Positions 2,489-32,303 of a DNA stretch of 64,000 nt are shown in pieces; the stretch's first letter is position 1; the number at the start of each line of letters is the position of its first letter. Origin of the DNA: Nocardioides marmorisolisilvae (lineage in GTDB: Bacteria > Actinomycetota > Actinomycetes > Propionibacteriales > Nocardioidaceae); the NCBI RefSeq assembly GCF_031656915.1, contig NZ_CP134227.1, forward strand, positions 1,364,001 to 1,428,000, written 5' to 3'. The notes under the pieces were generated by a model that was not told the DNA's origin, ran no database searches, and saw only the letters and a list, made by a program, of their open reading frames with translations. The position numbers and the translations under genes are program-made.

Positions 2489-3642
2489 CGTGCTTCTCCG
2501 CTCCTGTGCGAGGGAACCGGGCGGGCTCCGCTGACGCCGTTCGCAACCGGCCACAGCAGTCTGGGCCGCAGTGCTCGCAGGGCCTCGACGTGCTGCTGGC
2601 CGAGCGCCTCGAAGCCGGCAGGCGCGGTCCCGCGCAGGTACCTGTGGTGCAGGTAGGCCAGCTCGATCGCCTCACGCTGATACGCCGCCATCGTCCGTCG
2701 GGCCGGCGTACCGCCCGCGCGCTGGGCATACCGGCGGCAGGCACGCCTCGCGGGCAGCCGGACGAGCCACGGGATCTCGGACGGATCGAGGAAGCCCCGC
2801 TTGGCGCAGTCGGCCAGCGCGGAGGTCAGCATCCGGCCCTCCCGCGCGCGGGCCCAGACTGCGAAACCGGCGAACAGCAGGAAGGCGGGCACCATCAAGA
2901 AGAGGTAGGCGGAGACCGCGCCGCGGCCGTGGTCGACCATCAGCGCCCCGTTCCACAGACCGTGCGCACAGACCGCCAGCAGGTAGCCCACGACCGGGGC
3001 GCCGAAGCGCACCATGCGTCGACGTGACGAGACGGCGATCCCGACACCGACCCCGGTGAAGGCGGTGAACAGCGGGTGCGCGAACGGCGAGAAGAGACAC
3101 CGGATCACAAACAGTCCGACGGCGCCCTCCAACCCACCGGTCGCTCCGTTGTCGCCCATGTACGCCGACGTCAGGTAGAGGATGTTCTCGACGAACGCGA
3201 AGCCGATGCCCACCATTCCGGCGTACACGATGCCGTCGAGGATGCCGTCGAGCTCCTGGCGTCGGTAGAAGAGCAGCAGCACGATGAAGAGACCCTTGGC
3301 GGCCTCCTCGGTGAGTGGTGCGACCACGACGGCCGTGATGGCCTGGCCGTCGCCGAACGCGAAGGTGTCGACCGCCTGCAGGACCAGCGCGATCGTGGTC
3401 GCCACGAACGCGCCCCATCCCAGCCCGAGCACCAGCAGCGAGCGCGGCTCGGGCTCGTAGCGGTCCAGCCACAGGTAGCAGGCGATCAACGGGGCGACGG
3501 GCACCGCGGCCAGCACGGTGCCGGTCACCAGCGCCAGTGGAGCGCCCGAGAGCAGCAGCACCACGCCGATCGCCAACGCACCGACGAGCATCACCGTGCT
3601 GACGAGCACGGTGAAGACGGTGGTGTTGTGGCGGGCCGGCAT
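2485..3642 (-). CDS. PrsW-family intramembrane metalloprotease
   Basis: A polytopic membrane protein of 385 aa in the PrsW family (B. subtilis PrsW makes the first cut in an anti-sigma factor). Visible family motifs are EEAAK at residues 112-116, FAFVEN at 148-153 and a later HPLF motif in another membrane helix; together these supply the putative metal ligands. The C-terminal ~110 residues are soluble and basic. The start codon is 6 nt after a TACGCT -10 box, so the mRNA is probably leaderless. It heads an operon with two dynamin-like GTPases. The substrate is unknown, and no anti-sigma factor gene is nearby. Confidence 0.85.
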   Translation of the reverse strand: MPARHNTTVFTVLVSTVMLVGALAIGVVLLLSGAPLALVTGTVLAAVPVAPLIACYLWLDRYEPEPRSLLVLGLGWGAFVATTIALVLQAVDTFAFGDGQAITAVVVAPLTEEAAKGLFIVLLLFYRRQELDGILDGIVYAGMVGIGFAFVENILYLTSAYMGDNGATGGLEGAVGLFVIRCLFSPFAHPLFTAFTGVGVGIAVSSRRRMVRFGAPVVGYLLAVCAHGLWNGALMVDHGRGAVSAYLFLMVPAFLLFAGFAVWARAREGRMLTSALADCAKRGFLDPSEIPWLVRLPARRACRRYAQRAGGTPARRTMAAYQREAIELAYLHHRYLRGTAPAGFEALGQQHVEALRALRPRLLWPVANGVSGARPVPSHRSGEAR

Positions 3643-3648
3643 GGCCGT

Positions 3649-3654
3649 AGCGTA
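3649..3654 (-). promoter_or_regulatory. -10 box of leaderless prsW promoter
   Basis: TACGCT on the minus strand ends 6 nt before the ATG at 3642, which places the start codon at the expected transcription start. No conserved -35 is obvious. Confidence 0.5.
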
Positions 3655-3680
3655 TCGACAGCGGCGGGTGCCGGCCGACG

Positions 3681-3686
3681 TAGAGT
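3681..3686 (+). promoter_or_regulatory. -10 box of leaderless aminopeptidase promoter
   Basis: TAGAGT lies 6 nt before the GTG start at 3693 and diverges from the prsW promoter across a 50-bp intergenic region. Confidence 0.5.
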
Positions 3687-3692
3687 TGCAGC

Positions 3693-5111
3693 GTGAGTGA
3701 GGACACCCAGCAGCACACCGACGAGCACACCGAGAGCCACGACCCCGCCGTACCCGAGGCCTACGCGGCTTTCATGCGCGAGGGGTGGGGCGAGCGCGAG
3801 CTCGACCTGCAGCGACACCCGGTCGCCGACTTCGCCGATCTGCGACGCAAGCGGCTGTCCGAGGCGTTCCCCGGCGAGCGCCTGGTCGTTCCCGCAGGGA
3901 CGTTCAAGGTGCGCGCCAACGACACCGACTACCGCTTCCGGGCCGACACCGCGCACACCTGGCTGAGCGGCAACCAGACCAGCGACGCCGTGGTCGTGAT
4001 CGACGACGGCCAGGCCGTGCTCTACGCGCGTCCGCGCAGCTCGCGTGAGACCGACGAGTTCTTCCGCGACCGGCAGTACGGCGAGCTCTGGGCCGGCCGT
4101 CGGCCGTCGCTGCGCGAGATCTCCGACTCGCTCGGCATCGAGACCCGGCACATCGCCGACCTGCCCGACGTACTTCGCAGCGGGCACCGCACCCGCGTGC
4201 ACCGCGGGGTGGACCCCTCGGTCGATCGTCTTGTCCTCGCCGACGACGACCGTGACGCTGAGCTGACCCGGGTGCTCGCCGAGCTGCGCCTGGTCAAGGA
4301 CGAGTGGGAGCTGGGCGAGCTCCAGCACGCCTGCGACATCACCACGCTGGGCTTCGAGGACAGCGTCCGCGACTGGGACAACGCGATCCGTTACGGCGAA
4401 CGCTGGATCGAGGGCACGTTCTTCCGTCGAGCGCGGGCCATGGGCAACGACATCGGCTACGACTCGATCGTCGGCGGCGGCCGGCACGCGACGACACTGC
4501 ACTGGATCGACAACACCGGACCGATCACGCCGGGTGACCTGGTGCTGCTCGACATGGGCGCCGAGGCGCCCTCGCTGTACACCGCGGACGTCACCCGCAC
4601 CCTCCCCGTGTCCGGCACGTTCACGCCGCTGCAGCGGGATCTCTACGCGCTCGTGCTCACCGCCCAGCAGCGCGGGATGGACGCGATCCAGCCCGGCGAG
4701 ACCTTCCGGGTGGCGCACCACGCCGCGATGGACGTGCTGGCCCATGGGCTGGCCGACCTGGGACTGCTGCCCTGCTCCGCGGAGGAGGCGCTCGACCCGC
4801 AGAGCCGAGTCCACGCCCGCTGGACGCTGCATGGGGTCAGCCACATGCTCGGGATGGACGTGCACGACTGTGCCCAGGCGGCCGCGGAGACCTATCCCGA
4901 GGGTGACCTCGCCGAGGGGATGGTGCTCACCGTCGAGCCGGGGCTCTACTTCCAGGAGGACGACCTGCTGGTACCCGAGGAGCTCCGAGGCATCGGCATC
5001 CGGATCGAGGACGACGTCGTCGTGACCGCCGAGGGCTGCCGCAACCTCTCCGCGGCGCTCCCCCGCGACCCCGGGGCCGTCGAGGAGTGGATGGGCTCCC
5101 TGCGCGGCTGA
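3693..5111 (+). CDS. pepP: Xaa-Pro aminopeptidase, M24B family
   Basis: A cytosolic metallo-aminopeptidase that removes N-terminal residues preceding proline. It has 472 aa: an N-terminal creatinase-like domain (about 1-200) and a C-terminal pita-bread domain. The five metal ligands are recognisable: the Asp pair around LLDMGAE and YTADVTRT, His in HGVSHMLG, Glu in VEPGLYF and Glu in IRIEDD. The GTG start is preceded by TAGAGT at -10 spacing, so it is probably leaderless. The first ~20 residues are rich in His, Glu and Thr and look disordered. The next gene starts 1 bp after the stop. Confidence 0.9.
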   Translation: MSEDTQQHTDEHTESHDPAVPEAYAAFMREGWGERELDLQRHPVADFADLRRKRLSEAFPGERLVVPAGTFKVRANDTDYRFRADTAHTWLSGNQTSDAVVVIDDGQAVLYARPRSSRETDEFFRDRQYGELWAGRRPSLREISDSLGIETRHIADLPDVLRSGHRTRVHRGVDPSVDRLVLADDDRDAELTRVLAELRLVKDEWELGELQHACDITTLGFEDSVRDWDNAIRYGERWIEGTFFRRARAMGNDIGYDSIVGGGRHATTLHWIDNTGPITPGDLVLLDMGAEAPSLYTADVTRTLPVSGTFTPLQRDLYALVLTAQQRGMDAIQPGETFRVAHHAAMDVLAHGLADLGLLPCSAEEALDPQSRVHARWTLHGVSHMLGMDVHDCAQAAAETYPEGDLAEGMVLTVEPGLYFQEDDLLVPEELRGIGIRIEDDVVVTAEGCRNLSAALPRDPGAVEEWMGSLRG

Positions 5112-5112
5112 G

Positions 5113-6240
5113 GTGGACTGCACCCACTACGACGCCGGCCGGTGTCGCTCATGCTCTTTGCTCGAGGTGCCCCGCGCCGAGCAGCTCACCCGCAAGGAAC
5201 TGGCCTGCCGCACCCTGGTGCCGGCGCAACGCTGGTTGCCGACGGCGGCCGGCCCCGACGCGGCGTTCCGCAACAAGGCGAAGATGGTGGTGGCCGGGAC
5301 CGTCGACCAACCGACCCTGGGGATCCTCGGCCCGAACGGGTCGGGGGTCGACCTGCGCGACTGCGGCCTGCACGCACCGGGCCTGCAGTCGGCCCTCCCC
5401 TCGCTGGCACGGTTCGTGACCAGGGCCGGCCTGACGCCGTACGACGTGCCTGCGCGCCGCGGCGAGCTCAAGCTGCTCATCGCCACGGAGTCCCCCGACG
5501 GAGAGCTGATGGTGCGCTTCGTCCTGCGGTCGCAGGAGCCGGTGGCTCGGATCCGCAAGCACCTGCCGCAGCTGCTGGGCGAGCTGCCCGGGCTGCGGGT
5601 CGTGACGGTGAACCTGCAGCCCGAGCACAAGGCCGTGCTGGAGGGAGAGCGCGAGATCGTGCTCACCGAGGCGGCCACCCTGCCGATGCGCGTCAACGAC
5701 GTCACGCTGCAGCTCCACCCGCAGGGCTTCTTCCAGACCAACACGCTGCTCGCCGCAGCGCTCTACCAGCAGGCACGCGACTGGGCGAACGAGGTCGGCC
5801 CACGCACGGTCTGGGACCTCTACTGCGGGGTGGGGGGCTTCGCCGCGCACCTCGTGGCCTCGGACCGTTCGATGCTCGGTGTCGAGGTCAGCGTCGGCGC
5901 CGTCGAGGGGGCGCGGGCAGCCTCGGGTCCATCGTCGGGCCCCGCTGCCGACTTCGTCGCCGCCGACGCCACGGCCTATGCGATCGCTGCCGCCACGTCT
6001 CCGGACCTGGTGGTGGTGAACCCGCCGCGTCGCGGTATCGGCCCGGAGCTGGCCGGCTGGCTGGACCAGTCGACCGTGGGTCACGTCATCTACTCCAGCT
6101 GCAACGCCACCACGCTGGCCCGGGACCTCGCCGCGATGCCCGCTTTCCAGGTGAGCCGGGCCCGGATGTTCGACATGTTCCCGCAGACCGACCATTACGA
6201 GGTGATGGTGCTTCTCGAACGGTCAGATCGACCGGACTGA
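5113..6240 (+). CDS. rlmC: 23S rRNA (uracil-5-)-methyltransferase, RlmC-like
   Basis: A SAM-dependent m5U methyltransferase with a [4Fe-4S] cluster, 375 aa. N-terminal cysteines at 3, 11 and 14 and one in DLRDCGL fit the RumA/RumB cluster site. The SAM-binding motif is DLYCGVGGFAAHL, and the catalytic Cys sits in YSSCNATTL near the C-terminus, followed by MFPQTDHYE, typical of the family. The short form without a TRAM domain favours RlmC (U747) over RlmD. The GTG start lies 1 bp after the aminopeptidase stop, implying coupled translation. Confidence 0.88.
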   Translation: MDCTHYDAGRCRSCSLLEVPRAEQLTRKELACRTLVPAQRWLPTAAGPDAAFRNKAKMVVAGTVDQPTLGILGPNGSGVDLRDCGLHAPGLQSALPSLARFVTRAGLTPYDVPARRGELKLLIATESPDGELMVRFVLRSQEPVARIRKHLPQLLGELPGLRVVTVNLQPEHKAVLEGEREIVLTEAATLPMRVNDVTLQLHPQGFFQTNTLLAAALYQQARDWANEVGPRTVWDLYCGVGGFAAHLVASDRSMLGVEVSVGAVEGARAASGPSSGPAADFVAADATAYAIAAATSPDLVVVNPPRRGIGPELAGWLDQSTVGHVIYSSCNATTLARDLAAMPAFQVSRARMFDMFPQTDHYEVMVLLERSDRPD

Positions 6241-6457
6241 ACGGCAGGGTCTCGAACCGGCCTCCGCCGGGCAGCAGCCATCTCCAGCGCGGTTCGAATC
6301 CAGCGTCCGCCTCCGACGAGGAGAGCGGGAGCTGATGCGCGCTCGGGCTGACCCGTCCCTCGGGCTCGCGCGGCGCGTGACGGGGGCTGGTGACGAGACA
6401 GCACAGCGGCCTGTGACAAAGGCAGGACATCCTGCCGCCCGTGTGTCAGCATCAGCC

Positions 6458-24387: not shown

Positions 24388-24468
24388 TTAGCAAAGGAGC
24401 AGGGGGCTACGTGAACGGGTCCTGACTAGAAGGCTTGGTCCGGCGGAGCCGGAATTTCGGGTCAAGTC

Positions 24469-26088
24469 TCAGGCTGCGAGTCCAGATTCCTTCGTGAGTT
24501 GGTCGAGGGCGTGCTGGTAGGTGCGGCTCGCGGCCTGTAGGGGGTGGGGTTCGGGTCCGGCGAGTTGGGCCATGCCGGTGCGCAGCAGTCGGTCATGGGC
24601 GCGGGTGAGGAACAGGGCGTGCTCGATTCCGGTGTCGGTGACTTGGTAGTGGTTGCTGTGCGCACGACGGACGATGAGTCCGTGGACGCGGAGTCTGCGC
24701 AGGTCGTAGGTCATTTGCCCTGCCGACATGACGGTGCCGAGCAGTTGCCCAACGAGGTCGCGCAGGTCGCGGTTGGTGAACCCGTCGGGTAGCAGCCGGA
24801 ATACCAGGAGGGCGTGCAGCAACGCCATCGCGCGGGTATCGGCGAACTTCAGCCCGGCGACCCGGGCCCCGGTCTCGGTGGTGACCGGGTCGTTGAGCGT
24901 GGTGAAGACCTGTTGTCCTCGGGCCGGGTCGTGGCTGAGTCGTTGGACGTCGAGCAGACGCCTGTTGGCGGTGAAGCCGATCTCGCACAGGGCGGGCAGA
25001 TTGGTCAGTCGTTTCCGGATGTCGAAGTCGTAGGTGTTGTTGATCGTGGTCTCGGTGCGCAGCGCTCTCCCTTCCTTGTGGTACTGCTTGATGGTGGTCG
25101 CCTTGTAGTCCACGTGCAGGCTGGGAGTCACGCCTTGGGTGATCACTCGAGTCCGGAACCGTCCTGGCGTCTGGTGCTTCTTCCCGGCGTGGATGCGGCG
25201 GTTGAAGACCAACCCGACCTGGTCGGGGCGGCCCAGGTCGAGGTTGTCGCGGATGACTTGTTCGAAGAAGATCCGCCCGCTCACGGGCCGGTCCAGCATC
25301 TGGGTCAGCGAGAACTCCGCCTGCAGGATCGAGATGTCGTAGCGGTAGCCGGCCGCCCGGTCCGCCTTCGAGTAGGGGTGTGGCACCTTGGCCAGCCACT
25401 TGCGCAGCAGCGCATCGATCTGGTCGGGGCCCAGACTGGCGCAGATTGCCTGAACGGTGGCGACATCGGCGGGGTCATCGAAGGAGGCAAACGCGTTGTC
25501 CAACGCGGTGAACCCGATCCCCGCCTTCGCGGCCTGTCGCTTGGCCCACTCGTTGCCGTTGATGCACAACCGGGCGTTGTAGGGAAAGTAGGAACAGAAC
25601 TTGAGGAAGAACGGCCCGAAGTCGGCATCGACGGCGTAGACGTAGAAGTGGTTGACCATCCCGGTGGTCTTCACGATCCACGGATACGCCCGCCCCTCGA
25701 CGTTGCGGCGCTTCTCGGTGCGAAACAGCGACGTCTTCTCCTGCGCACGGCCGATGAACAACACTCCCTCGGTGTGCCCGGCTGCTTCGAACCGCGCCAG
25801 ACGCTCGTGCATGATGTCGTCCTTGCGTTGGCCCTTGACGAAGTCGACCCACGGCACGCCCTGGTCCACCGCGAAGCGGCGCATCTGTTTGCTGAACGCA
25901 TCGGTGATCTTGCTCAGCGGCGCGGTCGAGGCGACCGGAAGCCCGAGCTGGCGCTGCACATAGCCCACCAGTCCGGCCGCGTACTGCAACTGCGGAACGT
26001 AGACGTTGAGATACATCCGATCGATGCACTCGACCTCAAAGACGGTGTGCTCGGAAACGACATCGGACACGGTGCGCGGTAGCGTCAT
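24469..26088 (-). CDS. Element E protein, copy 1, unknown family
   Basis: A 539-aa protein, the only gene of the element and hence the candidate mobility protein. Conserved-looking blocks: CIDRMYLNVYVPQLQ (21-35), GQRKDD (86-91), FIGRAQEKT (111-119) with FRTEKRR (122-128), VNHFYVYAVDADFGPFFLKF (145-164), then SYFPYNARLCINGNE (166-180). The block at 145-164 has a D-x-D pair after a His. The C-terminal part (~425-500) looks like a winged helix (TYDLRRLRVHGLI ... HYQVTDTG). No DDE/RNase H pattern, HUH plus Tyr, serine or tyrosine recombinase signature, or reverse transcriptase motif is seen. I recall similar uncharacterised proteins in other bacteria but cannot name the family. Confidence 0.75.
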   Translation of the reverse strand: MTLPRTVSDVVSEHTVFEVECIDRMYLNVYVPQLQYAAGLVGYVQRQLGLPVASTAPLSKITDAFSKQMRRFAVDQGVPWVDFVKGQRKDDIMHERLARFEAAGHTEGVLFIGRAQEKTSLFRTEKRRNVEGRAYPWIVKTTGMVNHFYVYAVDADFGPFFLKFCSYFPYNARLCINGNEWAKRQAAKAGIGFTALDNAFASFDDPADVATVQAICASLGPDQIDALLRKWLAKVPHPYSKADRAAGYRYDISILQAEFSLTQMLDRPVSGRIFFEQVIRDNLDLGRPDQVGLVFNRRIHAGKKHQTPGRFRTRVITQGVTPSLHVDYKATTIKQYHKEGRALRTETTINNTYDFDIRKRLTNLPALCEIGFTANRRLLDVQRLSHDPARGQQVFTTLNDPVTTETGARVAGLKFADTRAMALLHALLVFRLLPDGFTNRDLRDLVGQLLGTVMSAGQMTYDLRRLRVHGLIVRRAHSNHYQVTDTGIEHALFLTRAHDRLLRTGMAQLAGPEPHPLQAASRTYQHALDQLTKESGLAA

Positions 26089-26093
26089 GAGAA

Positions 26094-26192
26094 GGCTCCG
26101 GTCAGGCGGGACGGCTCACCTTGAGCCAACCACCGCCAAGCAGGCGGTCACAACACGGGCCCCCGGGCACCGTCAACCCGCCGACCGGAGCC
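26094..26192 (-). ncRNA. Structured leader RNA of element E, copy 1
   Basis: Ten-base arms GGCTCCGGTC and GACCGGAGCC (26094-26103 and 26183-26192) pair exactly and enclose two hairpins: GGCTCA-CCT-TGAGCC (26113-26127) and ACCGCC-AAGCA-GGCGGT (26132-26148). The fold closes 5 nt before the start codon and could hide the ribosome site or act as an element RNA. Seen by eye only; not tested for covariation. Confidence 0.5.
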
Positions 26193-26251
26193 GCCAGCAC
26201 CACCCCGGGACACCACGCACGGCTCGTCGGGCTGGGGCGATGCCCCGTTAG

Positions 26252-27715
26252 TACTACAGCCGCACTTAGGGAACAGCGCTGCGCCTGGCGTAGTGGCATC
26301 GTCGGGCGCGGGCTTGGTGGCGGCGTCGCCAGCGTGACCAGTCCAGGACGACGGTGGTGTCTGGCTGGCGCTGCCAGATCAGGGCAGCGAGGAGCCGTCT
26401 GACTTCGGGCACGGTGAGGGGGATCAGTTCCTCGACCGGCCGGAGGTCCCCCTTTTTCCGCCGCCGGCGGCGGTGTTGGTCTGGGCGGTGGTGATGGTCA
26501 AGAAGGCGTGCGCGAGCATCGCCAAGGTGATGTGCCGATACCAGGAGTCGTAGCGGCGTACCTGGTACTGGTCGAGGCCGACTTGGCCCTTGGCTGTTTG
26601 GAACGTCTCCTCGATCGCCCAGCGGGCACCGGCCACCCGGACCAGTTCACGCAATGGGGTGCGTTCGGGCCCGAAGCACAGGTAGTAGGCGACATCATCG
26701 GGGTCGGTCAGGCTGCGGCGGGCCAGCAACCAGTAGCTGGGGCTGTCCTCCAGGGGGCGGATCGGCGCCCGGGCCCAGTGATACAGGCGCGGACCCTTGG
26801 CGCCGCGCCCGGCGGAGATCTTCTTCCACGCCTGGGCGGGAAGCATCGCGGCCAGCGCATCGGCGCGCAGTTCACGCACTTTCGGTCCGTCACCGTCGTC
26901 GACGGCGGCGATGACGCGCTGGTTCACCGGAACCGCCATCACGTAAGGCATCTGACGTTCTTCAAGCATCGCGCGCAATCGGTAGTGCTGGCCATAGACC
27001 TCATCGCCGGTGACCCACCCAGCCGGCACCCCGGCGTCGATCGCGCGCCCGATCATCCGCATCGCCAGCTCCGGCTTGGTCGCGAACTCCACCTCGTCCC
27101 CGATATGCGCCTCAGCGCGTCGGGCAGCATCCTCGGCCCAGGCCTTGGGCAGGTAGAGCTCACGGTCCAAGAACGTCCGTGCGGATCCCTGGCCAGGACC
27201 AGTGGCATAGCCGAGGAAGACGCCGATCTGGCAGTTCTCGATTCGTCCCGCAGTGCCGGAGTACATCCGCGCCACCCCCGCGGACTTCGTGCCCTTCTTC
27301 AAGAAGCCAGTCTCATCAACCACCAGCACCCCAGCAGGGTCGCCAGGCGCAGGGGCGAGGTGCTCGACCACGTAGTCACGCACATCGTCGCGCACCGCGT
27401 CGGCGTCCCAATCGGCATAGGCCAACAATCGCTGCATCCCGTCGGGGATCGCCTCACCTGCAGACTCGGCCAGCGTCCAGGAGTTCTTCTTCTCCAACGG
27501 CGCCAACAACCCCCGCACATAGGCCAACACCCGCTCACGCGGCTCCGAGCGCGCGAACCGCGGCGCGATCCGGGCATGCACCTCCGCAAGCCCCGCCGCC
27601 CACTCCTCGACCTCAGACACACAAACCTCACCAGTCACACCAGCAACATGCCGGCGAACACCAGTCTCACACAGGCGACACACCGATCACGGCCAAAATA
27701 AGTGCGGCTGTAGTA
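26252..27715 (-). mobile_element. IS701-family insertion sequence, left copy
   Basis: 1464 bp with 17-bp perfect terminal inverted repeats TACTACAGCCGCACTTA. The flanks are TTAG (26248-26251, the end of element E) and CTAG (27716-27719). The family duplicates a 4-bp YTAR target; the mismatch between flanks shows the left junction was altered after insertion. It is an inverted copy of 28667-30130. Confidence 0.9.
26266..27683 (-). CDS. IS701-family transposase, left copy, with -1 frame C-terminus
   Basis: DDE transposase of 419 aa in the main frame (26424-27683). Catalytic residues: D in VLVVDETGF, D in VTGDEVYG and E in AIEETFQTAKG. The main frame ends soon after an A5G5 run (T5C5 on the plus strand at 26448-26457). 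The usual family C-terminus (ELIPLTVPEVRRLLAALI ... RRRHQARARRCHY) continues in the -1 frame to 26266. It could be programmed frameshifting or an old deletion. The true start may be a GTG downstream of 27683. Confidence 0.8.
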
Positions 27716-27719
27716 CTAG

Positions 27720-28662
27720 AGCGTGTCTGCTAATGATCTGGCTGTCGGTCCGCGAGTGTGGGAGACATGCTGCGAACCGATGTCATCAGCGATGAGCTGT
27801 GGGCCGTTCTCGAGCCCCTGATGCCGTCCTCGCGCCGGCCTGGTCGACCTTGGAATGACCACCGGTTGACGATGGAGGGCATCGTGTGGCGTTTCCGGAC
27901 CGGCTCGCCGTGGCGAGATCTTCCCGAGCACTTCGGTGCTTGGCAGTCGGTCGCGGAACGGCATCTGCGCTGGTCCAAGGACGGCACCTATGCCCGGATG
28001 CTGCATGCGGTCCAGGCCGAGACCGGCGGGGTCGAGGAGGATCTGGCCGCGTTGTTGAGCGTGGACTCCACCAGCGTCCGAGCCCATCAGCACGCCGCAG
28101 GAGCGCGAACCGGCCAGGCAGTCCTGGCCAGCACAGGGGGCTGAATCGAGTTACAGGTTTTCGCCCGATGAGCCCGAGGATCATGCGATCGGACGCTCGC
28201 GCGGCGGCCTGACCACCAAGATCCACGCCCTCACCGACACCACCTGCTCGCCGGTCACCTTGTTGCTGACCCCCGGCCAGGCGGGGGACAACCCGCAACT
28301 GTGGCCGCTGCTGGAACAACACCGGGCGGCCTCGAAGTCCGGGTTCCGACTGCTGGCGGACAAGGCGTACTCCCACAACTCCACGCGCGCCAGGTTGCGG
28401 ACGATGAAGATCGCGCACACCATCCCCGAGAAGAGCGACCAGATCGCGTACCGCAAGGCCAAGGGCGCCTCGGGTGGTCGACCGCCGGCCTTCGACCCTG
28501 TGCTCTACAGCGAACGCAACACCGTCGAGCGAGGCTTCAACCGACTCAAGCAGTGGCGCGGCATCGCGACCAGGTATGACAAGTACGCGCTGACCTACCT
28601 CGGTGGCGTCACCCTCGCAGCCTTGGTGATCCACCACCGCGTCCGCCATTAGCAGACACGCT
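27720..28662 (+). mobile_element. IS5-family insertion sequence
   Basis: 943 bp with 16-bp perfect terminal inverted repeats AGCGTGTCTGCTAATG, flanked on both sides by CTAG (27716-27719 and 28663-28666), a 4-bp target duplication. It lies exactly between the two inverted IS701 copies. Confidence 0.9.
27767..28652 (+). pseudogene. IS5-family transposase, split in two frames
   Basis: The N-terminal part (27767-28144) holds the IS5-type start region WRDLPEHFGAW and the first catalytic Asp (SVDSTSVRAHQ), then ends at TGA 28142 just after a G5 run. The rest continues in the +1 frame: HAIGRSRGGLTTK, second Asp in LLADKAY, Glu in NTVERGFNRLKQ. Beyond the TGA the original frame still gives IELQVFAR, so a nonsense change plus a later frameshift is a plausible reading. 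Programmed frameshifting, common in IS5 relatives, is the alternative. Confidence 0.7.
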
Positions 28663-28666
28663 CTAG

Positions 28667-30130
28667 TACTACAGCCGCACTTATTTTGGCCGTGATCGGT
28701 GTGTCGCCTGTGTGAGACTGGTGTTCGCCGGCATGTTGCTGGTGTGACTGGTGAGGTTTGTGTGTCTGAGGTCGAGGAGTGGGCGGCGGGGCTTGCGGAG
28801 GTGCATGCCCGGATCGCGCCGCGGTTCGCGCGCTCGGAGCCGCGTGAGCGGGTGTTGGCCTATGTGCGGGGGTTGTTGGCGCCGTTGGAGAAGAAGAACT
28901 CCTGGACGCTGGCCGAGTCTGCAGGTGAGGCGATCCCCGACGGGATGCAGCGATTGTTGGCCTATGCCGATTGGGACGCCGACGCGGTGCGCGACGATGT
29001 GCGTGACTACGTGGTCGAGCACCTCGCCCCTGCGCCTGGCGACCCTGCTGGGGTGCTGGTGGTTGATGAGACTGGCTTCTTGAAGAAGGGCACGAAGTCC
29101 GCGGGGGTGGCGCGGATGTACTCCGGCACTGCGGGACGAATCGAGAACTGCCAGATCGGCGTCTTCCTCGGCTATGCCACTGGTCCTGGCCAGGGATCCG
29201 CACGGACGTTCTTGGACCGTGAGCTCTACCTGCCCAAGGCCTGGGCCGAGGATGCTGCCCGACGCGCTGAGGCGCATATCGGGGACGAGGTGGAGTTCGC
29301 GACCAAGCCGGAGCTGGCGATGCGGATGATCGGGCGCGCGATCGACGCCGGGGTGCCGGCTGGGTGGGTCACCGGCGATGAGGTCTATGGCCAGCACTAC
29401 CGATTGCGCGCGATGCTTGAAGAACGTCAGATGCCTTACGTGATGGCGGTTCCGGTGAACCAGCGCGTCATCGCCGCCGTCGACGACGGTGACGGACCGA
29501 AAGTGCGTGAACTGCGCGCCGATGCGCTGGCCGCGATGCTTCCCGCCCAGGCGTGGAAGAAGATCTCCGCCGGGCGCGGCGCCAAGGGTCCGCGCCTGTA
29601 TCACTGGGCCCGGGCGCCGATCCGCCCCCTGGAGGACAGCCCCAGCTACTGGTTGCTGGCCCGCCGCAGCCTGACCGACCCCGATGATGTCGCCTACTAC
29701 CTGTGCTTCGGGCCCGAACGCACCCCATTGCGTGAACTGGTCCGGGTGGCCGGTGCCCGCTGGGCGATCGAGGAGACGTTCCAAACAGCCAAGGGCCAAG
29801 TCGGCCTCGACCAGTACCAGGTACGCCGCTACGACTCCTGGTATCGGCACATCACCTTGGCGATGCTCGCGCACGCCTTCTTGACCATCACCACCGCCCA
29901 GACCAACACCGCCGCCGGCGGCGGAAAAAGGGGGACCTCCGGCCGGTCGAGGAACTGATCCCCCTCACCGTGCCCGAAGTCAGACGGCTCCTCGCTGCCC
30001 TGATCTGGCAGCGCCAGCCAGACACCACCGTCGTCCTGGACTGGTCACGCTGGCGACGCCGCCACCAAGCCCGCGCCCGACGATGCCACTACGCCAGGCG
30101 CAGCGCTGTTCCCTAAGTGCGGCTGTAGTA
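28667..30130 (+). mobile_element. IS701-family insertion sequence, right copy
   Basis: 1464 bp, inverted relative to the left copy, same 17-bp terminal repeats, with CTAG on both sides (28663-28666 and 30131-30134), a clean 4-bp YTAR duplication. The right CTAG is also the sequence after which element E copy 2 begins. Confidence 0.92.
28699..30116 (+). CDS. IS701-family transposase, right copy, with -1 frame C-terminus
   Basis: The protein is identical to the left copy. The main frame runs 28699-29958 (419 aa) and contains the full DDE triad. The family C-terminal block lies in the -1 frame and ends with TAA at 30114-30116. The shift point is A5G5 at 29925-29934, codons GGA AAA AGG GGG. Because both copies carry the same arrangement, the element probably moved or duplicated in this state. 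Confidence 0.8.
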
Positions 30131-30173
30131 CTAGAAGGCTTGGTCCGGCGGAGCCGGAATTTCGGGTCAAGTC

Positions 30174-31793
30174 TCAGGCTGCGAGTCCAGATTCCTTCGT
30201 GAGTTGGTCGAGGGCGTGCTGGTAGGTGCGGCTCGCGGCCTGTAGGGGGTGGGGTTCGGGTCCGGCGAGTTGGGCCATGCCGGTGCGCAGCAGTCGGTCA
30301 TGGGCGCGGGTGAGGAACAGGGCGTGCTCGATTCCGGTGTCGGTGACTTGGTAGTGGTTGCTGTGCGCACGACGGACGATGAGTCCGTGGACGCGGAGTC
30401 TGCGCAGGTCGTAGGTCATTTGCCCTGCCGACATGACGGTGCCGAGCAGTTGCCCAACGAGGTCGCGCAGGTCGCGGTTGGTGAACCCGTCGGGTAGCAG
30501 CCGGAATACCAGGAGGGCGTGCAGCAACGCCATCGCGCGGGTATCGGCGAACTTCAGCCCGGCGACCCGGGCCCCGGTCTCGGTGGTGACCGGGTCGTTG
30601 AGCGTGGTGAAGACCTGTTGTCCTCGGGCCGGGTCGTGGCTGAGTCGTTGGACGTCGAGCAGACGCCTGTTGGCGGTGAAGCCGATCTCGCACAGGGCGG
30701 GCAGATTGGTCAGTCGTTTCCGGATGTCGAAGTCGTAGGTGTTGTTGATCGTGGTCTCGGTGCGCAGCGCTCTCCCTTCCTTGTGGTACTGCTTGATGGT
30801 GGTCGCCTTGTAGTCCACGTGCAGGCTGGGAGTCACGCCTTGGGTGATCACTCGAGTCCGGAACCGTCCTGGCGTCTGGTGCTTCTTCCCGGCGTGGATG
30901 CGGCGGTTGAAGACCAACCCGACCTGGTCGGGGCGGCCCAGGTCGAGGTTGTCGCGGATGACTTGTTCGAAGAAGATCCGCCCGCTCACGGGCCGGTCCA
31001 GCATCTGGGTCAGCGAGAACTCCGCCTGCAGGATCGAGATGTCGTAGCGGTAGCCGGCCGCCCGGTCCGCCTTCGAGTAGGGGTGTGGCACCTTGGCCAG
31101 CCACTTGCGCAGCAGCGCATCGATCTGGTCGGGGCCCAGACTGGCGCAGATTGCCTGAACGGTGGCGACATCGGCGGGGTCATCGAAGGAGGCAAACGCG
31201 TTGTCCAACGCGGTGAACCCGATCCCCGCCTTCGCGGCCTGTCGCTTGGCCCACTCGTTGCCGTTGATGCACAACCGGGCGTTGTAGGGAAAGTAGGAAC
31301 AGAACTTGAGGAAGAACGGCCCGAAGTCGGCATCGACGGCGTAGACGTAGAAGTGGTTGACCATCCCGGTGGTCTTCACGATCCACGGATACGCCCGCCC
31401 CTCGACGTTGCGGCGCTTCTCGGTGCGAAACAGCGACGTCTTCTCCTGCGCACGGCCGATGAACAACACTCCCTCGGTGTGCCCGGCTGCTTCGAACCGC
31501 GCCAGACGCTCGTGCATGATGTCGTCCTTGCGTTGGCCCTTGACGAAGTCGACCCACGGCACGCCCTGGTCCACCGCGAAGCGGCGCATCTGTTTGCTGA
31601 ACGCATCGGTGATCTTGCTCAGCGGCGCGGTCGAGGCGACCGGAAGCCCGAGCTGGCGCTGCACATAGCCCACCAGTCCGGCCGCGTACTGCAACTGCGG
31701 AACGTAGACGTTGAGATACATCCGATCGATGCACTCGACCTCAAAGACGGTGTGCTCGGAAACGACATCGGACACGGTGCGCGGTAGCGTCAT
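30174..31793 (-). CDS. Element E protein, copy 2, unknown family
   Basis: The same 539-aa protein as the copy at 24469-26088, with identical sequence. Both copies are intact with no frameshift, so both may be active. The motifs described there (GQRKDD, FIGRAQEKT, VNHFYVYAVDADFG, C-terminal winged helix) are unchanged. Confidence 0.75.
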   Translation of the reverse strand: MTLPRTVSDVVSEHTVFEVECIDRMYLNVYVPQLQYAAGLVGYVQRQLGLPVASTAPLSKITDAFSKQMRRFAVDQGVPWVDFVKGQRKDDIMHERLARFEAAGHTEGVLFIGRAQEKTSLFRTEKRRNVEGRAYPWIVKTTGMVNHFYVYAVDADFGPFFLKFCSYFPYNARLCINGNEWAKRQAAKAGIGFTALDNAFASFDDPADVATVQAICASLGPDQIDALLRKWLAKVPHPYSKADRAAGYRYDISILQAEFSLTQMLDRPVSGRIFFEQVIRDNLDLGRPDQVGLVFNRRIHAGKKHQTPGRFRTRVITQGVTPSLHVDYKATTIKQYHKEGRALRTETTINNTYDFDIRKRLTNLPALCEIGFTANRRLLDVQRLSHDPARGQQVFTTLNDPVTTETGARVAGLKFADTRAMALLHALLVFRLLPDGFTNRDLRDLVGQLLGTVMSAGQMTYDLRRLRVHGLIVRRAHSNHYQVTDTGIEHALFLTRAHDRLLRTGMAQLAGPEPHPLQAASRTYQHALDQLTKESGLAA

Positions 31794-31798
31794 GAGAA

Positions 31799-31897
31799 GG
31801 CTCCGGTCAGGCGGGACGGCTCACCTTGAGCCAACCACCGCCAAGCAGGCGGTCACAACACGGGCCCCCGGGCACCGTCAACCCGCCGACCGGAGCC
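31799..31897 (-). ncRNA. Structured leader RNA of element E, copy 2
   Basis: Same predicted fold as at 26094-26192: ten-base closing arms (31799-31808 and 31888-31897) around two hairpins, just upstream of the E gene. Confidence 0.5.
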
Positions 31898-31952
31898 GCC
31901 AGCACCACCCCGGGACACCACGCACGGCTCGTCGGGCTGGGGCGATGCCCCG

Positions 31953-32303
31953 TTAGAGATAGAGGCCGGTCTGCACATCACCGAGGCGATCAGCCGCGAC
32001 GGCATGGATGTCACGCTCGCGCACCACGACGTACAGCTCGCCCTGCACCTCGACCTCGGCCTTGTCCTCAGGGTCGAAGAGCACCCGGTCGTCGACCTCG
32101 ACGGTACGCACGTGCGACCCGATGGACACCACGCGGTACCAGGACAGCCGCTTGCCGCCCATCGCCGCGGTCGCCGGGATCAGGATGCCGCCCGACGAGC
32201 GCCGCTCCCCCTGCTCGGTCTCCACGGCCACCAGCACCCGGTCGTGCAGCATCTTGATCGGCGTGCGCACGCCGTCCGTCGTCACCGGCGCCGTCTTGCC
32301 CAC
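31953..32303 (-). CDS. GroES-like co-chaperonin-family protein
   Basis: A 116-aa protein with the GroES beta-barrel pattern: PIKMLHDRVLVAVE at the start, the mobile-loop region GERRSSGGILIPATA, DRVLFDPEDKAEVEVQGELYVVVRERDI at the end. A C-terminal extension LGDVQTGLYL goes beyond a standard ~97-aa GroES. No groEL is nearby, so it is a secondary paralogue. The stop codon TAA is made by the TTAG end of element E; the rejoined empty site gives TAG at the same place, so the protein is unchanged. Confidence 0.82.
   Translation of the reverse strand: MGKTAPVTTDGVRTPIKMLHDRVLVAVETEQGERRSSGGILIPATAAMGGKRLSWYRVVSIGSHVRTVEVDDRVLFDPEDKAEVEVQGELYVVVRERDIHAVAADRLGDVQTGLYL

Follow-up and report, generated by a model that had tools for sequence, protein, structure and literature searches.

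The window analysed here is the whole 64,000-nucleotide (nt) stretch of Nocardioides marmorisolisilvae contig NZ_CP134227.1 from position 1,364,001 to 1,428,000, and all coordinates below are positions within it. Two direct repeats in the window (24425-26251 and 30130-31956; 1,827 bp each and 100% identical) carry the same intact open reading frame (ORF) of 539 amino acids (aa) on the minus strand (24469-26088 and 30174-31793), which is the sole gene of what is here called element E; no TnpB gene lies inside. The initial annotation had recognized both ~1.82-kb repeats with their shared protein and had placed small hairpins at 24439-24453 and 26234-26246, all of which holds (the hairpins as judged by eye). 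It had also treated 24430-31956 as one element, a span that in fact consists of a copy of E at each end and, between them, a split IS5-family element flanked by two IS701-family copies in inverted orientation, and it had put a CTAG just outside the low-coordinate end, where CTAG instead spans the boundary. In gene orientation, in which the gene-5' tip is the left end and the gene-3' tip the right end, the element begins CTAACGGGGCATCGCCCC and finishes CCGGCTCCGCCGGACCAAGCCTTCTAG, with bounds running from ...CT^AACGGGG (26249) to ...CTTCT^AG (24428). Its length is ~1,822 bp under a CT^AR cut model, the exact cut being ambiguous within C-T-A. The features of the two copies are as follows.

24428..26249, minus strand: element E copy 1, identical to copy 2; tips set by comparing copies at unrelated sites
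30133..31954, minus strand: element E copy 2; bounds from repeat identity and tip comparison
24469..26088, minus strand: putative transposase, 539 aa, copy 1; no family match above threshold; C-terminal MarR-like winged helix
30174..31793, minus strand: putative transposase, 539 aa, copy 2, identical
26248..26251 (copy 2, 31953-31956), minus strand: CTAA at the gene-5' tip, predicted nick CT'AA; from end comparison and analogy
26234..26246 (copy 2, 31939-31951), minus strand: GC-rich hairpin GGGGC-ATC-GCCCC, 3 nt inside the gene-5' tip; from covariation among 21 distinct left ends
26094..26192 (copy 2, 31799-31897), minus strand: structured leader, predicted from folding against shuffles and aligned leaders
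24439..24453 (copy 2, 30144-30158), minus strand: hairpin TCCGGC-GGA-GCCGGA near the gene-3' tip, read from the sequence; varies among relatives
24426..24429 (copy 2, 30131-30134), minus strand: CTAG at the gene-3' tip; from end comparison

Element E is, with near certainty, an independently mobile insertion sequence, a conclusion that rests on identical copies, unrelated flanks, empty sites, conserved ends and a patchy distribution, and that bears out the earlier description of a mobile element with an unrecognized mobility protein. The host genome (one contig of 4,228,226 bases) holds five copies, two of them in the window; four encode an identical protein, and the fifth is 99% identical and frameshifted. 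A second genome (G069), whose family protein is 41% identical to that of E, contains three full-length copies and a broken fourth at unrelated places, and the three (one of which departs from the other two over a short stretch) share exact ends, CTAACGAGGCTCCGCCTCGG and ...GACCAAGGATCGCTAG. The same genome also has ~30 matches of a dispersed ~75-base repeat, one of which adjoins a family element. Matches were present in 5 of the 98 genomes searched, the host included (that is, 4 of 97 others), and in none of the 23 other genomes of the same genus. At least 15 of 396 genomes match in a sample of the phylum, the host included, as do at least 17 of 247 in the phylum of a Sulfopaludibacter relative (G522, itself included), both tallies being lower bounds because only three or five candidates were scored per genome. 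The 27 records or genomes reached through the loci all match, which the manner of their selection makes unsurprising; 22 of them show at least two matches (some of these being pieces of one copy), and one shows as many as 30. The hosts, going by record taxonomy or title, belong to Actinomycetota and Pseudomonadota (Betaproteobacteria), together with Sulfopaludibacter and Bryobacterales, which we take from the organism names to be Acidobacteriota and hence a third phylum. Twenty-five records in a plasmid collection match, whereas a phage collection of 50,697 records has no match; among viral contigs there was no match with the single-protein query and one weak match with the family profile. Six plasmid records annotate the protein, five as 'hypothetical protein' and one as 'ArsR family transcriptional regulator', and two more are unannotated. 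On one Mycobacterium riyadhense plasmid, two family members lie side by side (2986-4602 and 4745-6406; 43% and 23% identical to E).

Empty sites demonstrate that insertion falls within one CTAG-like site, with no evident duplication. An OsmC-like gene (named by eye) has the Arthrobacter wenxiniae copy at its stop codon, and the joined flanks of this copy match in one piece over positions 1-604 in 5 of the 22 other genomes of the genus. A single CTAG stands at the join in all five, clean in two (L215, L216) and gap-rich in three (L218-L220), and two further genomes that match the left half well have CTAG (L213) and TTAG (L214) there. The single CTAG indicates that the last A of the left CTAA is derived from the element and that the target was most likely CTAG, a tetranucleotide seen 16 times in the window where 66.5 would be expected from trinucleotides. 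In Caballeronia SBC2, a copy lies within the first five codons of a hypothetical gene, which it disrupts, and the corresponding stretch of C. zhejiangensis (71% identical) is uninterrupted, with CTGG at the insertion place. No joined empty site was found for the window copy, whose right flank matched relatives and whose left-flank matches lay elsewhere in them; a GroES-like gene (by eye) ends in the outer right flank of the array, and the 11 relatives compared at that stop have CTAG (four), CTGA (four), or GTAG (three). Likewise, no empty site of one G069 copy (L053) was found in 19 other genomes of its genus, and neither Paraburkholderia pBN2 nor the other SBC2 copy gave a match across the join.

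Alignment of the homologues' ends revealed defined tips in company with these sites, and the homologues did not prove to be the stable single-copy genes without ends with which the initial annotation had contrasted a mobile element. The pattern used to pick left ends specified the hairpin and the motif following it and left the tip free; it missed the G069 copies. Ends alike in their 30 flanking letters were counted once. All 43 distinct left ends have C(T/C)A beside the hairpin (CTA in 36, CCA in 7); the hairpin starts within ~2 letters of the tip and in most cases leads into AGCCCGACGAG or a close variant (both counted by eye). The right tip is CTAR in 18 of 19 loci (by eye). Since members of the CCA clade combine their left tip with a CTA right tip (L023, L191, L192), the tips of one element can differ from each other, which makes a target duplication unlikely. 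No inverted repeat of length 18 or more was found between the tips of E, and each empty site carries one CTAG only; the terminal-repeat and duplication hallmarks of DDE insertion sequences are not evident.

Comparison indicates that the left hairpin exists beyond chance. Across 25 left ends chosen by hand (21 distinct), 98.1% of stem cells pair, and none of 500 shuffles match the hairpin on cells paired or on cells changed on both sides. Two pairs covary, one being A-T instead of G-C in 6 of the 21 distinct sequences and the other T-A instead of C-G in 2; 91 of the 500 shuffles reach the observed number of pairs with two-sided change (two), and all 500 reach the observed number of further pair types. 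Folded alone, the 60-nt tips of the window element do no better than shuffles, so the support for the left hairpin is comparative. At the position of the gene-3' hairpin, the right-end sequence varies among relatives. After the stop codon, most relatives have CTTGACTC, and several (L095, L096, L137, L146, and others) have a complementary AGTCAAG, GAGTAAG, or CAAG near the tip (by eye), a pairing that could possibly form a conserved right-end stem. Short runs of CTAC/CTAG or CTAR extend beyond the right tips of six loci from Rhodococcus and Mycobacterium sp. SM1 (L092, L019, L024, L026, L027, L035), perhaps as footprints of repeated insertion and excision at one place. An octamer, AGAAGGCT, to which the initial annotation had drawn attention beside the tip and at the gene start, does occur at 24428-24435 and 26090-26097 (by eye), but its repetition looks incidental, and a role as a regulatory site was rejected because the sites differ in most of the relatives compared (by eye).

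The 539-aa protein matches no known family above threshold in the libraries searched. No match at an E-value up to 1 was obtained in NCBIfam or PHROGs, Pfam yielded one sub-threshold winged-helix match only (E-value 0.092), and the sequence search of PDB gave nothing better than an E-value of 0.24. No transposase, recombinase, HUH, or reverse transcriptase family matches the protein, in agreement with the first reading of its sequence, and the IS200/IS605, IS91, and DDE transposase families match neither it nor the family members. An alignment of 40 homologues (20-71% identical to E) was assembled from 58 distinct ORFs, leaving out near-duplicates, fragments, and frameshifted sequences. Several members match winged-helix families (best E-value 4.8e-07), 1 of the 40 weakly matches phrog_2880, a phage 'replication initiation protein' (E-value 0.053; among the 25 of 29 families listed), and 2 of a 33-member set weakly match Replic_Relax (best E-value 0.051). 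Within the alignment, E258, Y336, K338, R344, and E346 are invariant in all 40 homologues, K334 is conserved in 39 with R in the other, and of the 36 homologues with a residue at position 23, 35 have D and one has H. The one invariant tyrosine stands in K-x-Y-x-K on a strand, and D23, E258, Y336, K338, R344, and E346 form a candidate active site.

Structure prediction offers a tentative relationship for this protein. The AlphaFold model of the whole protein, made with 33 aligned rows (7 of the 40 dropped), has a predicted local distance difference test score (pLDDT) of 85.6 and a predicted template-modelling score (pTM) of 0.79, and its C-terminal part is a winged helix, as judged from MarR-type regulators among its Foldseek matches and from Pfam hits in several members. 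D23, E258, Y336, and E346 are predicted to lie on separate strands (15-30, 251-265, 331-338, and 342-349, respectively). The best PDB structure match is 4cij, the Rep_trans initiator RepSTK1 of Geobacillus stearothermophilus (E-value 0.013, probability 0.89), which supplies four chains of the top five. In the viral library, the top structure match is A0A2N9QVX7 (E-value 8.5e-5), which the available text of PMC13107129 gives as a phycodnavirus TBP among the matches of the archaeal Rep_trans-like Rep-Arvir initiators, which carry a MarR-like domain. According to the portions of PMC4797284 drawn on here, the nucleophile of RepSTK1/RepDE (Y179/Y191) has R and K two residues to either side and is followed by R-x-E, and the metal ligands D, D, and E of Rep_trans each occupy their own strand. 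The E family has a tyrosine in R/K-x-Y-x-K, then R-x-E, together with acidic motifs N' and I, the equivalence of the motifs having been judged by eye; Rep_trans has D in motif I where the E family has E, and the R-x-D-x-A-x-D of Rep_trans resembles the Q-x-E-x-S/A-x-D of distant members (by eye). The better of two profile alignments is in register over motifs II-III and sets K-x-Y-D-K against the Y-E-K of Rep_trans. In the part of PMC9371924 concerned, MOBT relaxases and Rep_trans initiators nick CT'AA in the loop of a GC-rich hairpin. The left tip of E is CTAA beside a GC-rich hairpin, and joined E ends would recreate CT'AA; the cut is accordingly placed at CT'AR by analogy with the published nic site, the sequence alone placing it within C-T-A.

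The reading preferred here, to which a probability of about 0.6 is assigned, is that E is an autonomous insertion sequence whose protein is a single-tyrosine nicking-joining enzyme of Rep_trans type (TBP-like fold) and not an HUH enzyme, a DDE transposase, or a serine or tyrosine recombinase. The case for a Rep_trans-like mechanism draws on the active-site pattern, a single weak fold match, and the nic site. Only slightly less assured is the fuller proposition that a Rep_trans/TBP-fold enzyme serves as the sole transposase of an insertion sequence family in at least two phyla, moving one strand between CT'AR sites with its expression held down by a conserved structured leader. Several results weigh against a Rep_trans enzyme of this kind. 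No PDB structure match reaches an E-value of 0.001, and the template-modelling scores by query length are 0.18-0.20. The core of a distant member (L164; 410 aa, pLDDT 85.6, pTM 0.85) did not return 4cij among its best 50 of 448 structure matches, the best of which had an E-value of 0.14 and in which TBP was 24th. Compared as profiles (hhalign), the E family and six Rep_trans proteins, of which one was verified as PF02486 in this analysis, showed no significant similarity (probability 0.2%, E-value 0.35; 0.1%, E-value 0.62), and PF02486 matched none of 40 members at an E-value up to 0.1 and none of 33 at an E-value up to 10, a search whose filters drop most matches above 0.1. The spacing from Y to E is 10 residues in E versus 17 or 23 in Rep_trans (from the available part of PMC4797284). 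At the ends, CCA replaces CTA at 7 of the 43 left tips, and within the CTA clade alone a 3-bp CTA duplication is indistinguishable from none. Finally, a DDE element, IS701, likewise targets CTAR in this genome, so that the target alone is no proof of a Rep_trans mechanism. In the absence of a significant sequence or profile match, the E family is not a member of PF02486 by sequence; that family was itself found in none of 149 genomes of the window's phylum and in Bacillus subtilis among 14 control genomes.

An unlikely account, and still the strongest of the rivals, takes E as an insertion sequence of a new family, single-stranded in its movement or not, whose protein has another fold or class (e.g., a divergent HUH enzyme, a LAGLIDADG-like saddle nuclease, or an unknown nuclease) and resembles Rep_trans by convergence. 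The non-significant profile comparison and the L164 model, which did not repeat the Rep_trans structure match, speak for such a protein, as does a LAGLIDADG_1 match at an E-value of 1 in one of 33 members. It is harder to reconcile with the invariant tyrosine and the acidic residues, each set by the model on a strand of its own like those of Rep_trans, with 4cij as the top PDB match, and with the CT'AA tip, and an HUH enzyme in particular fits poorly with H147 in only 24 of the 40 homologues and no conserved H-x-H at the one candidate place examined.

If the protein is a Rep_trans-type enzyme, it would recognize the end hairpins and perhaps other end sequence, with probable help from the C-terminal winged helix, and would nick the gene strand at CT'AA at the left tip and CT'AG at the right tip. 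The protein would be held on the 5' end through Y336 as the element's own ends are joined into a single-stranded circle whose junction is again CT'AA. A target like CT'AG would then be nicked and the circle joined into it, the second strand being supplied by host replication. Such a single-strand cycle predicts no inverted repeats, no evident target duplication, and clean insertion within CTAG.

Expression should be kept low in the same scheme by a leader RNA that hides the ribosome-binding site. The 99-nt leader (26192 down to 26094) is predicted to form a closing stem, GGCTCCGGTC/GACCGGAGCC, enclosing three hairpins. Its folding z-score is -4.52 in E, and those of three relatives are -4.82 (L095), -3.13 (L022), and -5.93 (L024), with none of 200 shuffles as good in each case; two other leaders, folded without the 5' half of the closing stem, scored -1.45 (L018) and -1.98 (L036). 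A GGAG in the 3' strand of the closing stem, 7 nt before the ATG, is invariant in all 20 aligned leaders, which were chosen by hand. RNAalifold recovered the outer stem only, with a small covariation term (-0.62); 9 pairs are predicted in this stem, and 4 of them have a two-sided change that keeps pairing, in one sequence each. Rfam gave one match, below threshold and outside the element ends, and none for the leader. The simplest reading of the predicted structure is that the leader would hide the ribosome-binding site, which is hidden likewise in IS200 and IS10/IS50. It is also possible that the leader does more than control translation (e.g., a guide role).

Between the two copies of E (26249-30133), identical inverted IS701 copies surround an IS5-family element, and the joins are at CTAG/TTAG. 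These neighbours are listed below.

26252..27715, minus strand: IS701-family element at the tip of E copy 1; transposase at 26424-27683; NCBIfam NF033540, E-value 1.3e-137
27720..28662, plus strand: IS5-family element between the IS701 copies; transposase divided between two ORFs, with NF033580 matching in two pieces
28667..30130, plus strand: second IS701-family copy, inverted; transposase at 28699-29958

The IS701-family element is present in nine copies in the genome, and the array E-IS701-IS5-IS701-E is probably a product of recombination or of nested insertions at shared CTAG sites. Two other loci of the host genome (L049, 1991000-2006000; L050, 4039000-4055000) are IS701-E-IS701 composites in which both IS701 copies point the same way and the outer repeats match (CTAA/CTAA and CTAG/CTAG), which indicates that IS701 can carry E as a composite. 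These composites, together with an IS701-like AGTA tip that precedes 17 of the 43 distinct left ends (by eye), favor a view of E as a passenger moved by flanking IS701 copies. That view is nevertheless improbable: the lone host copy (L051), the three G069 copies, and copies in Caballeronia/Paraburkholderia and Arthrobacter have the same kind of ends without an IS701-like AGTA tip at the left, the ends are conserved across hosts, and the use of the same rare site, CTAG, by both elements can explain their adjacency. As a general account, passage with IS701 was ruled out by IS701-free copies with empty sites; such carriage may explain the newest copies in the host genome. A chromosomal gene or decayed replicon (an integrated rolling-circle plasmid), suggested by the resemblance of the protein to plasmid initiators, is more improbable still in the face of a single gene, fixed ends, several identical copies per genome, and precise empty sites.

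E almost certainly represents at least a new insertion sequence family, and there is a somewhat better than even chance that its enzyme is new as a class of transposase. Comparison of the protein with sequences and predicted structures, a course that the initial annotation had pointed to, led to no known transposase family in the libraries searched. Transposases fall into a handful of enzyme classes, and Rep_trans is known, in the sources as far as available, for plasmid and phage replication and for conjugation; the available text of PMC5714925 describes HUH enzymes as transposases and mentions Rep_trans solely in replication and conjugation. No Rep_trans/TBP-fold transposase or element of this type was found in the open literature as far as its text was available, with subscription papers, preprints, and ISfinder outside the search. 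If the preferred reading is true, a second, non-HUH route to single-strand transposition exists, rolling-circle replicons and insertion sequences acquire a testable link, and many 'hypothetical proteins' become transposases. Insertion within one CTAG without evident duplication is also of interest for DNA-insertion tools.

Among known systems, the IS701 family shares the CTAR target with E and often adjoins it, but has a DDE transposase, inverted tips, and 4-bp duplications. IS200/IS605 elements (Y1 HUH) have no inverted repeats, hairpins near both ends, a short fixed target, and no duplication. E has similar subterminal hairpins and inserts at a short target without evident duplication, which upholds the early impression of IS200/IS605-like ends with an unlike protein; it differs in lacking a Y1 HUH family match and a TnpB gene and in its left hairpin 3 nt from the tip. 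IS91/Helitron elements have a tetranucleotide target and two-tyrosine HUH enzymes, whereas E has one invariant tyrosine. They resemble E in having neither inverted nor direct repeats and an initiator-like enzyme (in the available part of PMC5714925). The Rep-Arvir proteins, as presented in the available text of PMC13107129, act in archaeal virus and plasmid replication and carry the domain DUF7845 (PF25227), which is not among the matches of the 40 or 33 members of the E family; they share with E a MarR-like winged helix and A0A2N9QVX7 as a viral structure match, and have a TBP-like core such as is tentatively proposed for E. Compared with Rep_trans (pT181-type initiators, RepSTK1, and the MOBT relaxases NicK and RelSt3), the E protein is larger and is the sole gene of an insertion sequence, and its hairpin adjoins CTAA, whereas the MOBT hairpin surrounds the nic site (in the part of PMC9371924 concerned). 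Rep_trans proteins resemble E in Y-x-K, R-x-E, and acidic residues on separate strands, in CT'AA (in E a predicted nick) with a GC-rich hairpin, and, in some members, in a helix-turn-helix domain outside the core.

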